From positions 1-13,668 of the forward strand of contig RPYR01000218.1 of assembly GCA_008671285.1 (NCBI GenBank): DNA of 13,668 bases, read 5' to 3'. This document shows positions 8,673 to 13,668 of this stretch, in pieces (position 1 is the first letter of the stretch; the number at the start of each line of letters is the position of its first letter). The stretch comes from Collinsella aerofaciens. Its GTDB lineage: Bacteria > Actinomycetota > Coriobacteriia > Coriobacteriales > Coriobacteriaceae. The translations under genes were made by a program, and so were the position numbers. The notes below the pieces were generated by a model that worked only from the letters and a program-made list of their open reading frames with translations, did not search any database and was not told where the DNA came from.

Positions 8673-9298
8673 GGCTCATCGTTGTCGACGACGACCGCTT
8701 AGTGGTCGATTCGCTCAAGATTATCCTGGGCGCCCAGCCGCAGATCGAAGTGGTGGGCACCGGCGCCAATGGCGACGAGGCGGTCGCGCTCTACAGCGAG
8801 CACGCGCCCGACATCGCGCTGCTCGACATTCAGATGCCGGGACGCGACGGCCTTTCGGCGGCACGCGAAATCCTTGAGCGCGACCCCACGGCGCGCGTGG
8901 TGTTTCTGACGACATTCTCGGATGACGAGTACATTGTGTCGGCGCTTAAACTGGGCGCCCGCGGCTACCTGATCAAGACCGATGTCGCCGCCATTCCGCC
9001 GGCGTTGGCACAGGTCATGGATGGCAAACGCGTGCTCGAGGGCAAGGCGATCGAGGATATCGATTTTAATGGGGCGGGCACCGAAGCCGACGCGCCCCGC
9101 CGGCCCACAGCCTTTGCCGGCCTAACCGACCGCGAGTTCGAAGTCGCCGAGCTCATCGCCCGCGGCCTCGACAACAAGGAGATCGCCGCCACCGCCTACA
9201 TGGGCGAAGGCACCGTGCGCAACCACATCAGCTCGATCCTAGCCAAAATGGGGCTACGCAACCGCACGCAAATCGCCATCGCCTATCTGCGAGGCTAG
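8669..9298 (+). CDS. Response regulator, NarL/LuxR family
   Basis: This is a 209-residue two-domain regulator. The receiver domain (1-120) has the acidic cluster VVDDD (Asp7, Asp8), phospho-acceptor Asp53 in LLDIQMPG, Thr81/Thr82 in FLTTF and Lys103 in YLIKTD. A short linker follows. The C-terminal LuxR-type helix-turn-helix (about 147-207) begins LTDREFEVAELIARGLDNKEIA and contains GTVRNHISSILAKMGLRNR, the DNA-recognition segment. Overlap with the kinase stop (ATGA) indicates translational coupling; GAGG lies four bases before the ATG, with AAGGAG further up. The likely targets are the divergent promoters at 7330-7526, controlling the ABC-2 operon and perhaps its own synthesis. This is an inference from position. 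Transcription should end at the hairpin at 9636-9670. Confidence 0.93.
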   Translation: MRLIVVDDDRLVVDSLKIILGAQPQIEVVGTGANGDEAVALYSEHAPDIALLDIQMPGRDGLSAAREILERDPTARVVFLTTFSDDEYIVSALKLGARGYLIKTDVAAIPPALAQVMDGKRVLEGKAIEDIDFNGAGTEADAPRRPTAFAGLTDREFEVAELIARGLDNKEIAATAYMGEGTVRNHISSILAKMGLRNRTQIAIAYLRG

Positions 9299-9328
9299 CC
9301 GCTGGCTGCCGCCAATTTGATGCCATTT

Positions 9329-9482
9329 CAAAACTATGCCGGTTTACTACGATGAACCGCATATCTCCGACCACGGCAAATTGTGCACTTACAAAACCGC
9401 AGGTAGAACACTTGCGATATTTGCAAAAATGCGGGTGTGGTCAGGAATCTCGGATTCATCGTAGTAAACCGGCATAGTTTTG
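9329..9482. repeat. Palindromic element A: 28-bp perfect inverted arms around a 98-base centre
   Basis: Bases 9329-9356 and 9455-9482 are perfect 28-base inverted repeats; the left arm begins CAAAACTATGCCGG and contains TACTACG. The 98-base centre has a secondary GACCAC/GTGGTC pairing (9369-9374, 9437-9442) and ACAAAACCGCAGGTAGAAC (9391-9409), which forms a small CGCAGG...CTTGCG hairpin with a 7-base loop and one G-T wobble. No open reading frame is credible here and no clear target duplication flanks the arms. It starts 30 bases after the response regulator stop. Its architecture parallels element B; I do not recognise a named family. Confidence 0.85.
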
Positions 9483-9574
9483 TTCGGGCGGCCCTGCACG
9501 AGTGTCTCCGCCAGCCTCGCGGGACCAAAATGATCCGTTTTCCTCCGTCCCCAAGGGATCAGCCGGAACCGCTC

Positions 9575-9734
9575 GCCACGAAATCGGCCCATCTACTACG
9601 TTTGACTCGATACCCCTGACCATACCTTCGTTTTGAACAAAACCGCAGGCGTTCTACCTGCGGTTTTGTTTTTGCGCTTTTCGGCATGGTTGGGGGTAAG
9701 GGGCTAAACGTAGTAGATGGGCCGGTTTCGTGGC
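9575..9734. repeat. Palindromic element B: 29-bp inverted arms, nested stems and a terminator core
   Basis: Bases 9575-9603 and 9706-9734 are inverted repeats matching at 28 of 29 positions; the left arm starts GCCACGAAATCGG and includes CATCTACTACGTTT. Inside lies a second pairing (9611-9623 with 9686-9698, 11 of 13 bases), and at the centre a perfect 14-bp hairpin (9636-9670). The minus strand carries the same 19-mer ACAAAACCGCAGGTAGAAC found in element A. The spacing between arms, 102 bases against 98, is also similar. The region between the two elements (9483-9574) has no gene and only a weak TGATCC/GGATCA dyad (9531-9536, 9556-9561). Confidence 0.85.
9636..9670. terminator. Bidirectional Rho-independent terminator inside element B
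   Basis: A perfect 14-bp stem, AACAAAACCGCAGG paired with CCTGCGGTTTTGTT, encloses a 7-base loop (9650-9656). On the plus strand the GC core is followed by TTTTGTTTTTG, and on the minus strand by TTTTGTTC. It lies between two converging transcripts, the two-component genes and the pilin gene, and could stop both. Confidence 0.8.
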
Positions 9735-9754
9735 AGGCCCTTTTCGCCTACGCA

Positions 9755-9796
9755 CAAAAGCGCCGCCACGGAGGAGGGAGATGCCTCCGTGGCGGC
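9755..9796 (-). terminator. Rho-independent terminator of the pilin-like gene
   Basis: A perfect 13-bp stem, GCCGCCACGGAGG (9762-9774) with CCTCCGTGGCGGC (9784-9796), encloses a 9-base loop. On the minus strand it is followed by GCTTTTG, a short T run. It lies about 75 bases past the stop codon of the pilin-like gene. Confidence 0.75.
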
Positions 9797-9833
9797 TGGG
9801 GGTAGGAGTAGGTCGTGATTTAACCCTGCCGGC

Positions 9834-9871: not shown

Positions 9872-12800
9872 CTAGCGCTTACGGATACCCCAGACCAGGG
9901 CTCCGACGCCGGCCATGGCGATAACAAATGCCATGAGCAGGGCCGTGGCCTGCTGGTCGCCTGTGGTGGGCAGGAAACCCTTGACCGTCTTGACGATGTT
10001 CGTCACGGTCTTGGGCGTGCCAGGATCGGGCGTCGGCACGGGCGTCTCGGGCTTCTTGTACGTGTTGTTGAACACGATACCCTCGACGCTTTTGTCGCCC
10101 TTGGTAAAGGCGACGTTCGCCTTGAGGTTGCCCTCGCCGTCATCGACCACGTTGACGGTCACGGTAAAGACGGACTTGTCGTAGGTCATACCGACCTCGT
10201 CGCCCTTGACCTCGCTGATGGTGTAGGCGGGCGTACCGGGCTCGTCGTACTCAAACTTGTCAAAGTTGATCTTGCCGTCGGCATCGTTGGTAACCGTAGA
10301 CTCGATGTCCTCGCCAACGAGCTTAAAGCTAAACTCGTCCTTCTTGAGTTCGCGTCCCTCGAGCACCTTGATAGCGCCGATGGAAACCTGCGTAGGCATG
10401 GCGTGATACTTGTTGGTAAAGCCAGCCGACTCGGTGGTTCCCTCGAGCTTGTGCGTCGCGGTCAGCGTGCCGTCGCCGTTGTCGGAGACGGTGGTCACGA
10501 CGGTGTAGGTCGTGCCGTCATAGGTGACACCCTTGTACAGACCGAGCGCGTTGGGGCAAGCCTCACGCAGCATGTACGTGTGCGTGCCGGGCGCCTCGTA
10601 GCGGATCGGGCTCAGCGCGACGGTGCCGTTGGCGTCGTTGGTGCCGCTAGCGACAACCACGCCGTCCTCGAGCAGCTCAAACGTGAACTCGCCCGCTGCA
10701 AGATCGCGTCCGGTCAGACGCTTGACCGTCTTGACCTGGTCGGTCACCACAGAATCGGTAGGCGTCACGCTGTAGGTGTTGGTGAACGTGAAGGCAGCGC
10801 CGTCGCCGCCGTCGCGCACGACACGCAGATGTCCGGTACCGTCGTCAGTCACGGTGTAGGAAACCTTGCGCATGGCGTTGGCGTCGTTGGTCACACCAGG
10901 GGCGCTACCGGACTCGGTCACCGTGTAGGTAAAGGTGTGCGAGCGCGGAGCGGTGGGGGCTGCGGACTCGGACTCGTCATTAGGCTCGTCAGCGCTGGCG
11001 TCGGCGTCAGTTGCAGCCTCGTCAGTCTCTGCCTCGTCGACTTCCGCCTCGTCGGCATCGTCGGCATCAGCTTCGACCTTGTCGGTCACATCGGTCGTCA
11101 CGCCCAGGGCGCGGTTGAGGTCGTCGAGCGTAAAGTGGATCTTGCCAAAGTCCACGTTGCCGGCCGCGTCGTTGGTCACGGTTGTGTGCTCGGGCATCGG
11201 GGCACCAGCCTCGTCGGCAGTCACGGTAAAGGTGAACTTACCCGTGATGTCGGCCGGGGTCAGGCTCTCGGCAGCTTGGAGCTTCTTGGTACCGGCGAGC
11301 GTGGCGTCAACGGCATCGGCGCCGTAAACGTTCTCGAACACGGGCTCGGCGTCACCGTAGTTGGGCGTTGCCGTCAGGGTACCGTCGCCGTTGTCGACGA
11401 CAATGACCTTAAAGCTAAAGCTCGGCGTTGTGGCGGTAATGCCCTTGCCGTCCAGCAAGTTCGTAAGCTCAAAGGCCGTGTAGTTAATAGTCCATGCAAG
11501 CTTGGCATCCGTGTCGGTGCGGATGGCACGCTTGGCGCTTACCAGATCGGCGAGCATCTCGGTCGTGTAATGCAGCGTTCCAAAGCTCACCTGACCGTTA
11601 ACGTTGGTAGCCGGAGTGCCCTGGATTGCTTCCGTCTCGCCTGCGTAGGCAATGCCGAACCAGAACTCGCCGTCGGCCATCGGACGACCGGTCAGGGTCT
11701 TGGTGGCAACGACCTGAGCAGCGGCACCACCAGGTGCGTCGGTCGTGGCGCTATAGCTGTTGCGGAACGGAATCACAGCGCTCTCGACCGTAGCGGCACC
11801 AGTCTTGTACTCGGTCACCAGCGTGCCCTTGTCGGGGTTGCCAGTAACGGTCGTGGTGGCAGTAAGCGTACCGGCGCCGTCATCGGCGATAGCGATCGTC
11901 ACGGTGCGGGCAGCGTCGTCATAGGTGTAACCGGGCTGGCCGTCGTTCTTCTCGGCCACGGTGTACGTAAAGGTCTTGCCCGCGTCAGCCTGCGTAAACT
12001 TGACCTCATGGCCAGCCAGGATGTCAATCAGACCAACCGTCGCCTCTGCCGTTGCAGGGGACTTGTACACGTTGGCGCCCTCGTGCAGGCCGAGCGCTTT
12101 GGCCGAAGCCTCGTCGGCGGGCGTCACGGTAAAGGTGAACTGGCCCTCGGTCATGGGACGCCCGGAGAGGGTCTTGCTGAGCTTAAGGCCACCGGCCGCG
12201 GTGTAGTTGAGCTCAGTGTGGTACGTGTTGGTAAAGCGTCCATTCCCCTTCTTGGTGACGTTGGCGATCAGCTTGCCCTCGCCGTTCTCGGTCACGGTCA
12301 CCTCGGCGGTCGCGACATGAGAGTCATACGTCATGCCTGCCGCGCTGCCCGCGTTCTCGCGGATCTCGTACTTGTAGGTTCCAGCAGCCGTGTAGTGGAT
12401 CTTGCCGAACTTGATGGCGGCGATGCCATCCTTCGCGTCCTTCTTGCTCACAGTTACGGTTGCGGGGTCGGGCAGCGGGGTGCCCTCGGGAGCGGTGATG
12501 GTAAAGCTGAACTTGTCGGAGTCCGTCCAGTCGCGACCGTCGATGGCCTTGCTCAGGTCAAAGTCGAGCTCTGCGTCGAGCGGGGTCACGCTGTAGGAGT
12601 TCTTGAACTCGGCGGGCTCGGTGCCCTTCAGGACATGCTCGGCCCTGAGTGTGCCGTCGCCATTGTCCGTGATGGTGGTCTCGATGGTGAACTTGGCATT
12701 GCTGTAGGTGATGCCCTTGCTGGTGGTTCCGCCGTTGACCTCGTGCAGCGTGTAGATATGCTTGCCGGCCTTGGTGTACTTCACGGCGCTCATCGTGATC

Positions 12801-13668
12801 TTGCCCTCGGCGTCGTTGGTGCCAGTGGCGACGACCTTGTCGCCCTCGACGAGCTCGAAGGAGAACTCGCCGGCCTTGAGGTCGCGGCCGTCCAGGACCT
12901 TGGTCGCGGTGATCTGGTCGGTGACGCTGAACTCGTCAGGCGTCACGTTATAGGTATTGGTGAACGTAAATGCCACATCGCCGTCCGGCTTGCGGGATAC
13001 GCTCAGATTGCCCTTGCCGTCATCAGTCACGGTGAAGGAAACCTTGCGCGACAGCTTGGCGTCGTTGGTCACGCCAGCCACTTCGCCGGACTCGGTCACG
13101 GTGTAGGTAAAGGTGTGCTCGCGCTTCTCGGGCTTCTCGCCCAGAGCCTTGTTAAGGTCGTCGAGCGTAAAGGCGATCTTGCCAAAGTCGACCTTGCCGT
13201 CAACGTCGTTGTGCACGCTCGTGCTCGCAGGCATAGGCGCGCCCTCTTCACCGGTCACGGTAAAGGTGAACTTGCCGGTGATATCAGCCGGGGTCAGAGC
13301 GTCGTCAACCTGCAGATTCTTGATACCCGCAAGCGATGCCTCGGTAGCATTCGTGGTGTAGGCGTTCTTGAACTCGATGCTCTTGACGTCCTTGGCGTCC
13401 TTCAGCTCGTGCGTGGCAACCAGCTGGCCCTTGCCGTTATCGGCGATGGTCGTCACGATGGTGTAGACCGCGTCATCGTAGTCAATACCGCCGGCGTTGC
13501 CCTTAACCTCATGCAGCTTGTAGGTGTGCTGGCCGATCTCGGTGTACTTGATGGCACTGAACGTCACCTTGCCGTCGGCGGCGTTCTTAACGGTCTCGAC
13601 AGGCTTAACTTCCTTCTCAATGATTTCGAGCAGCTCAAAGCTGAACTCGTCGGCCGTAAGGGCACGCC
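9872..13668 (-). CDS. Giant LPXTG-anchored pilin-like surface protein with FctA/Spy0128-type isopeptide domains (5' end missing)
   Basis: The C-terminal 1264 residues of a wall-anchored surface protein are visible; the frame is open at the window edge. Eight complete domains and one partial domain lie at about 13668-13358, 13336-12950, 12916-12593, 12556-12221, 12187-11753, 11713-11324, 11302-10772, 10738-10406 and 10390-10058. Each complete domain has the Lys in a TKxLxGR- or AGxKxLQ-like start, a Glu in a YTxxE-like strand and an Asn in a final FxNxY, the triad expected for a spontaneous Lys-Asn bond in Spy0128/FctA pilins. A Pro-rich stalk (KKPETPVPTPDPGTP) leads to LPTTG (9959-9973), a hydrophobic segment and the tail IRKR, the substrate signal of a sortase. 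No sortase is in the window. The apparent start at 13565-13567 is an internal GTG; the sequence GRALTADEFSFELLE continues the fold upstream of it. The likely role is adhesion or a surface fibre. Confidence 0.93.
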   Translation of the reverse strand, partial: RALTADEFSFELLEIIEKEVKPVETVKNAADGKVTFSAIKYTEIGQHTYKLHEVKGNAGGIDYDDAVYTIVTTIADNGKGQLVATHELKDAKDVKSIEFKNAYTTNATEASLAGIKNLQVDDALTPADITGKFTFTVTGEEGAPMPASTSVHNDVDGKVDFGKIAFTLDDLNKALGEKPEKREHTFTYTVTESGEVAGVTNDAKLSRKVSFTVTDDGKGNLSVSRKPDGDVAFTFTNTYNVTPDEFSVTDQITATKVLDGRDLKAGEFSFELVEGDKVVATGTNDAEGKITMSAVKYTKAGKHIYTLHEVNGGTTSKGITYSNAKFTIETTITDNGDGTLRAEHVLKGTEPAEFKNSYSVTPLDAELDFDLSKAIDGRDWTDSDKFSFTITAPEGTPLPDPATVTVSKKDAKDGIAAIKFGKIHYTAAGTYKYEIRENAGSAAGMTYDSHVATAEVTVTENGEGKLIANVTKKGNGRFTNTYHTELNYTAAGGLKLSKTLSGRPMTEGQFTFTVTPADEASAKALGLHEGANVYKSPATAEATVGLIDILAGHEVKFTQADAGKTFTYTVAEKNDGQPGYTYDDAARTVTIAIADDGAGTLTATTTVTGNPDKGTLVTEYKTGAATVESAVIPFRNSYSATTDAPGGAAAQVVATKTLTGRPMADGEFWFGIAYAGETEAIQGTPATNVNGQVSFGTLHYTTEMLADLVSAKRAIRTDTDAKLAWTINYTAFELTNLLDGKGITATTPSFSFKVIVVDNGDGTLTATPNYGDAEPVFENVYGADAVDATLAGTKKLQAAESLTPADITGKFTFTVTADEAGAPMPEHTTVTNDAAGNVDFGKIHFTLDDLNRALGVTTDVTDKVEADADDADEAEVDEAETDEAATDADASADEPNDESESAAPTAPRSHTFTYTVTESGSAPGVTNDANAMRKVSYTVTDDGTGHLRVVRDGGDGAAFTFTNTYSVTPTDSVVTDQVKTVKRLTGRDLAAGEFTFELLEDGVVVASGTNDANGTVALSPIRYEAPGTHTYMLREACPNALGLYKGVTYDGTTYTVVTTVSDNGDGTLTATHKLEGTTESAGFTNKYHAMPTQVSIGAIKVLEGRELKKDEFSFKLVGEDIESTVTNDADGKINFDKFEYDEPGTPAYTISEVKGDEVGMTYDKSVFTVTVNVVDDGEGNLKANVAFTKGDKSVEGIVFNNTYKKPETPVPTPDPGTPKTVTNIVKTVKGFLPTTGDQQATALLMAFVIAMAGVGALVWGIRKR

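Follow-up and report, generated by a model that had tools for sequence, protein, structure and literature searches.

Why should two neighbouring palindromes of nearly the same size have a common centre and different arms? This question is raised by elements A and B in a 13,668-nucleotide stretch of Collinsella aerofaciens DNA (contig RPYR01000218.1, hereafter the window). The original prediction, made from the letters of this DNA, had noted that pairing is kept while the arms diverge, had proposed a non-autonomous mobile element, a structured RNA or a dual terminator, and had suggested searching the arm motif TACTACG across Collinsella, building a covariance model (CM) and comparing orthologous sites. 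Our results suggest that A and B are probably non-autonomous elements served by dedicated nucleases with an AbiEi-like and a VSR-like part, as REPINs are served by RAYTs, the enzyme being unrelated.

A dispersed family of palindromes and its neighbouring gene

Elements A and B are inverted repeats 92 bp apart, with arms of 46 nt (85% complementary) at 9329-9482 in A and of 52 nt (83% complementary) in B. Their predicted RNA folds have z-scores of –11.9 and –15.3, and none of 200 shuffles folded equally well in either case. The finer details described from the sequence also hold: the 19-mer lies at 9391-9409 on the plus strand in A and on the minus strand in B, TACTACG has an inverted partner in each element, the GACCA/TGGT pairing occupies equivalent places, and the 7-base loop and, in A, the G-T pair are present. 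Homology among copies extends over 160 bp, and within the window the family model (CM R1) matches A and B only. Family-wide conservation concerns a core 15-mer, AAAACCGCAGGTAGA; the 3' half of the core hairpin is not conserved.

The pattern TACTACG-(90-120 bases)-CGTAGTA was found as 1 to 13 exact pairs per genome in 22 of 43 Collinsella genomes, while a reversed control pattern gave no match in the Collinsella genomes having such pairs. Among the matches listed the pairs span 121-123 bases, although the pattern permits 104-134. Of the 80 stretches listed from named collections (119 in total), 79 belong to Collinsella and the remaining one to an archaeon; viral contigs gave no match. An alignment of 34 copies (A1) is nearly free of indels, begins with GCCAC, ends with GTGGC and has AAAACCGCAGGTAGA in common. 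Each position of this core is 96-100% conserved in 163 aerofaciens-type copies, a figure that partly reflects selection, since element sets were chosen by model or on the core (at least 11 of 15 bases). Arm types A and B both recur in every genome studied in detail, and left and right arms nearly always match each other, with occasional mixed cases.

The covariance model built from A1 matches 54 of 65 genomes of the bacterial family, in five of its six genera. Strain-level counts of 19 to 41 matches per genome are upper figures, as both strands of one palindrome may count; G017 and G025 have 31 and 24 model matches, respectively. The weaker hits keep the palindromic form, the core and an inner pair CCGAGTAGAC/GTCTACTCGG, but have quite different outer arms. 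AAAACCGCAGGTAGA likewise stands at near-constant spacing in other species and genera of the family, between very different arms that match left to right. A model of the interior without base pairs (R2), by which the whole class was searched on sequence only, matches 80 of 296 genomes, chiefly in this family with some in two other families of the order. Copies from one genome resemble each other more in the arms than in the interior (0.75 versus 0.58 in G049, for example), and their length is nearly constant: a 15-base arm piece occurs 27 times in G049, as 12 pairs spanning 125 bases, one spanning 126 and a single lone site. In G025, some elements have on one or both sides an iteron-like tandem array of the outer arm with a period of exactly 31 bp (C1 419977-420178 and others).

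The partner of these palindromes appears to be a protein of ~385 amino acids, with an AbiEi-like N-terminal part and a C-terminal part whose fold resembles VSR and I-Bth0305I (EDxHD), including the invariant acidic and His residues. Judging by fold and active-site residues, the protein is a predicted PD-(D/E)XK-type (VSR/EDxHD-like) nuclease; a Foldseek search with the first protein model found nothing at an E-value of 0.001 or below. The nuclease family was found in 187 of the 296 Coriobacteriia genomes sampled and in 51 of 52 genomes of the bacterial family, there usually in several copies (three to nine matches per genome). The class-wide gene search counted pieces of one gene apart and scored at most six candidates per genome. 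The element commonly lies ~50 bp past the nuclease stop codon. At L032 (G002) and L423 (G007) the nuclease gene is broken or cut, related genomes having intact copies. At L038/L419 and related loci, the element past the nuclease gene and the next segment, which judging by its translation holds putative tRNA genes, are tandemly duplicated ~0.8-1 kb apart.

To quantify the association we used 70 nuclease loci, namely the 30 best and 40 hand-picked among the matches listed. Fifteen were seed genes or close relatives, and five (L439, L454, L455, L456, L458) were already known as neighbours of elements. A model-free search for long-armed palindromes found one within ~400 bases of the gene end at 56 of the 70 loci, at 46 of the 55 outside the seed locus, and at 42 of 50 when the five known genes were also left out. 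The two element models match 44 of 70, 29 of 55 and 24 of 50 of these loci, respectively. In contrast, palindromes were found in none of 55 windows drawn at random at distances above 700 bases, in none of 55 placed inside the gene, in one of 53 shuffled sequences and beside one of 40 Y1 genes; a previous far control, in which some loci had a second element downstream, gave 8 of 91. The core is present at 11 or more of 15 bases in 43 of 67 gene-side palindromes, versus two when shuffled. The nuclease gene occurs in 79 of the 80 genomes with core matches and in 108 of the 216 others, a comparison not corrected for kinship.

Beside some of the genes, the arms are also those of particular dispersed copies. 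Among 14 genes of nine genomes with a usable flanking palindrome, seven match independent dispersed copies of their own genome (4 to 16 copies compared per genome), two match their own flanks only and five match none, while comparisons across genomes gave two matches in 1,582. The G049 gene has arms matching 8 of 9 non-flanking copies. In G065 one gene matches 9 of 11 copies and another, with a different arm family, 1 of 11; two genes of G046 match 3 of 6 and 1 of 6, and single genes of G064 and G059 match 2 of 6 and 1 of 4. In the aerofaciens group two further paralogues, with arms CCTAAGTGAGTAGACTTTT and CGGAAGTATGCGGCAAATT, match dispersed copies (L007 in the same genome and six loci in related genomes), and a third paralogue has no match.

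Different arms of A and B

The proteins encoded at the main nuclease locus in 13 genomes of the aerofaciens group fall into four groups, one represented by a single sequence. Four arms accompany them, and the gene-side arm tracks the protein group without exception. Groups I to III have more than 1.1 kb of upstream sequence in common; for group IV it is ~0.3 kb upstream or ~1 kb downstream. Between arm types, protein identity is 0.41-0.66 over much of residues 30-240 and reaches 0.91 at positions 300-330 of the alignment. The arms of B in the window fit the gene-side arm of group III (G009), the right arm scoring 30 of 32 and the left 27. Those of A score best with group II (G001; right 24, left 23), group I being nearly equal (22). 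We propose that A and B differ because they were derived from different specificities of the nuclease. Every genome carries A and B copies regardless of its present nuclease allele, so these copies would predate the allele. The group IV arm is not dispersed.

The features of the locus are collected in Table 1. A and B sit between two convergent genes, and G001, the nearest of the genomes examined, has both elements at the same place.

Table 1. Elements A and B, their parts and the adjoining genes (window positions).
Feature	Position	Strand	Basis
Element A, arms type A, core on +	9326..9485	+	CM R1 153.5 bits, E 1.6e-51; inverted repeat
A left arm, outer + inner, TACTACG 9345-9351	9329..9360	+	Sequence
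A right arm, CGTAGTA 9460-9466	9451..9482	-	Sequence; inverted repeat
A inner motif left, GACCA	9369..9373	+	Sequence, alignment A1
A inner motif right, TGGTC on +	9438..9442	-	Sequence, alignment A1
A conserved asymmetric core AAAACCGCAGGTAGA	9393..9407	+	Conservation in aerofaciens-type copies
Element B, arms type B, core on -	9575..9734	-	CM R1 157.3 bits, E 8.1e-53; inverted repeat
B left arm, TACTACG 9594-9600	9575..9606	+	Sequence
B right arm, CGTAGTA 9709-9715	9703..9734	-	Match to group III gene-side arm
B inner motif left, GACCA	9618..9622	+	Sequence
B inner motif right, TGGTT on +	9687..9691	-	Sequence
B conserved asymmetric core	9653..9667	-	19-mer at 9651-9669 minus
B core hairpin, perfect 14 bp, 7-nt loop, then T-rich DNA on +	9636..9670		Inverted-repeat search
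LuxR-type response regulator gene, 209 aa	8669..9298	+	Pfam PF00072, PF00196
Surface-protein gene, Spy0128-like (FctA) isopeptide domains	9872..13567	-	Pfam PF12892, 9 stretches

Other repeats occur close by. Past the surface-protein gene, at 9762-9796, there is a separate 13-bp hairpin with perfect pairing, GCCGCCACGGAGG/CCTCCGTGGCGGC. A further repeat, TGATCC..GGGGACGG..GGATCA, lies between A and B (9525-9570) and beside many other elements, which GGGACGGGGCTTTTTT and GGAATAGTTCC repeats likewise adjoin; these three may be part of other repeat systems, for instance of Y1 genes.

Mobilisation weighed against other explanations

Alternatively, the AbiEi/VSR-like proteins might bind the elements as fixed sites and not mobilise them; such sites would have a resident role, for example in self-marking, in holding a toxic nuclease in check or in organising the chromosome. 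We regard this as unlikely, although several observations agree with it. The arms are better conserved than the interior in eight of nine genome groups, mostly clearly (0.65 versus 0.64 in the 162-bp group of G017). Near-identical unlinked copies were not found, the most alike pair within any of 12 genomes reaching 92%, and many element positions are common across the aerofaciens group. Moreover, AbiEi antitoxins autoregulate by binding inverted repeats, as stated in PMC7319586. However, outside the aerofaciens group positions are not common between species: no between-genome pair of copies has homologous genes on both sides, while 149 pairs match on one side. Nor did the 91 flank proteins (of 173 candidate open reading frames) have a neighbour family in common. 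Transposase_mut was matched among them, and the reading that two inverted elements of G049 flank a Transposase_mut gene proved wrong, the protein between them belonging to the nuclease family.

Comparison of orthologous sites also argues against fixed positions, as a site between convergent genes lacks the element in 15 genomes but has it in seven, four times with B arms and three times with A-like arms around a similar core. The check for a target-site duplication covered one filled/empty locus, with strongly diverged flanks. At another site the bases adjoining TACTACG change in coordination on both sides. An inverton was rejected: no locus was found with the interior in both orientations, and whereas 490 orthologous pairs have the same orientation and 47 are flipped, the 20 flipped pairs that were examined are different elements. 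Of the three ideas in the original prediction, the non-autonomous mobile element is the best supported, by dispersal, by non-orthologous sites between species and by the paralogue-specific match to a nuclease, which would mobilise it.

A structured RNA or bidirectional terminator would account for the very stable folds of A and B, for the 14-bp hairpin of B with T-rich DNA after it, and for the position of 35 of 91 non-aerofaciens copies between convergent genes (from crude gene calls, background not measured). We nevertheless consider it very improbable. By the same calls, 15 of the 91 copies lie between divergent and 41 between tandem genes, and a consensus scan gave no terminator-like site. 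RNAalifold supports the outer arms only in A1 and no pair in A2. Rfam gave no match at gathering score in the whole window and none in 9250-9800 under relaxed search. Collinsella-1 RNA (RF01700), which has a table row in PMC2864571, likewise had no match in the window. Among mismatched outer-arm pairs there are 278 G-T and 279 A-C (p = 1). By set, these are 172 versus 200 and, in the non-aerofaciens set, 106 versus 79, which leans towards G-T (p = 0.056). Given no overall excess of G-T over A-C, the arms behave as two matched DNA sites and not as an RNA stem. That pairing is kept while arms diverge is true, but selection on an RNA fold explains it less well than two matched protein-binding sites. 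Termination may be a side effect in places: at one locus (L051 and its orthologues L100-L121), the position of the element is taken in 15 genomes without it by an ordinary convergent hairpin (GTGGGACAAAAA..TTTTTGTCCCAC).

Least probable of all are ordinary miniature inverted-repeat transposable elements (MITEs) of a DDE transposon or REPINs of a Y1 (RAYT) transposase: the elements are short, intergenic and non-coding with inverted ends, and Y1 genes occur in 10 of 14 genomes tested, but no longer, gene-carrying version with the same arms was found in three near-complete genomes, the only distant arm pair results from an IS256-type insertion into an element, a single interior among many unrelated arms is not expected from internal deletion, none of 20 Y1 gene loci has an R1 or R2 element, and the element-rich G017 and G025 have no PF01797 match. 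A strict RAYT/REPIN system was accordingly rejected, the partner gene not being Y1/HUH. An autonomous transposon sharing ends was not found with TACTACG arms in three genomes or with another arm in one. At L249 1104-2741 (G002), an IS256-type insertion sequence lies inside a palindromic element, flanked by the 8-bp repeat TCGACATG.

Proposed mechanism and relation to known systems

Mobilisation by the dedicated nuclease would build on a common element plan: lineage-specific outer arms that serve as a matched, inverted pair of sites, an inverted motif further in, and the asymmetric core common to the family, all at near-fixed spacing. Each arm family would have its own partner, a paralogue or allele of the AbiEi-like and VSR-like nuclease. 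The AbiEi-like part would first bind the two arms as inverted repeats, as the match of arms to genes and the inverted-repeat binding of AbiEi, described in PMC7319586, suggest. The VSR-like domain, to judge from its fold and invariant residues, may then nick or cut the element. Finally, the element would be copied to new sites, to which the dispersal and turnover of elements point. A scheme of this kind has been proposed for RAYT enzymes acting on REPINs (PMC3116915).

The nuclease part resembles VSR and I-Bth0305I (EDxHD) endonucleases in its C-terminal fold and invariant acidic and His residues. Unlike them, it has no mismatch-repair or intron context and is joined to an AbiEi-like N-terminal part. 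Homing is a property of endonucleases of the VSR/I-Bth0305I (EDxHD) type. ERIC and Correia elements are, like the elements here, intergenic palindromes of ~100-160 bp; to our knowledge, each has one arm family and no nuclease partner of this kind.

Repetitive extragenic palindromic (REP) sequences offer a closer parallel. As described by Bertels and Rainey (2011; PMC3116915), REPINs are extragenic inverted pairs of conserved ends with a diverged spacer of kept length and compensatory changes, and each of several families per genome stands beside its own single-copy RAYT gene. The present elements likewise have two inverted conserved ends, a diverged spacer whose length is kept and compensatory changes, and are non-coding, extragenic and present in many copies. 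They too form several families per genome, each beside its own gene (with independent copies for 7 of 14 genes), although that gene is an AbiEi/VSR-like nuclease and not Y1. Unlike in REPINs, the core is common across arm families and the arms measure 25-45 bp, in one genome in tandem at 31 bp. The logic of one family and one gene is the same, yet because the partner is not a Y1 enzyme the elements fall outside the REPIN/RAYT class. GTAG/CGTC-tagged REP dimers, as portrayed in PMC3733652, are also dispersed palindromes, often dimers with 20-100 bp spacers; however, each of those units is 20-40 bp long, forms its own stem and carries a tag at its end, whereas here the inner motif GAGTAGAC includes GTAG and no short hairpin follows it at the ends. 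Compared with the AbiEi antitoxins covered in PMC7319586, the AbiEi-like part is fused to a nuclease-like domain, and the elements lie mostly beyond the 3' end of the gene and genome-wide.

As a broader and tentative proposal, which we think could well be wrong, the AbiEi-VSR nucleases may form a new class of enzymes that evolved independently of the Y1 RAYTs and mobilise non-coding palindromes in trans. Strains would swap specificity by exchanging the variable portion of the gene along with the element next to it, and each paralogue would found its own repeat family in the same genome. Many bacterial genomes contain intergenic palindromes of unknown origin, and the RAYTs are the only enzyme family we know of as tied to such repeats, one family per gene. 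Testable pairs result, in each of which a protein can be tried on its own arms, with several foreign arms serving as internal controls. If true, the proposal would assign a role to a protein family that is widespread in the Coriobacteriia and uncharacterised, and, by adding a second and unrelated enzyme family, would suggest that one-to-one partnerships of this kind arise repeatedly.
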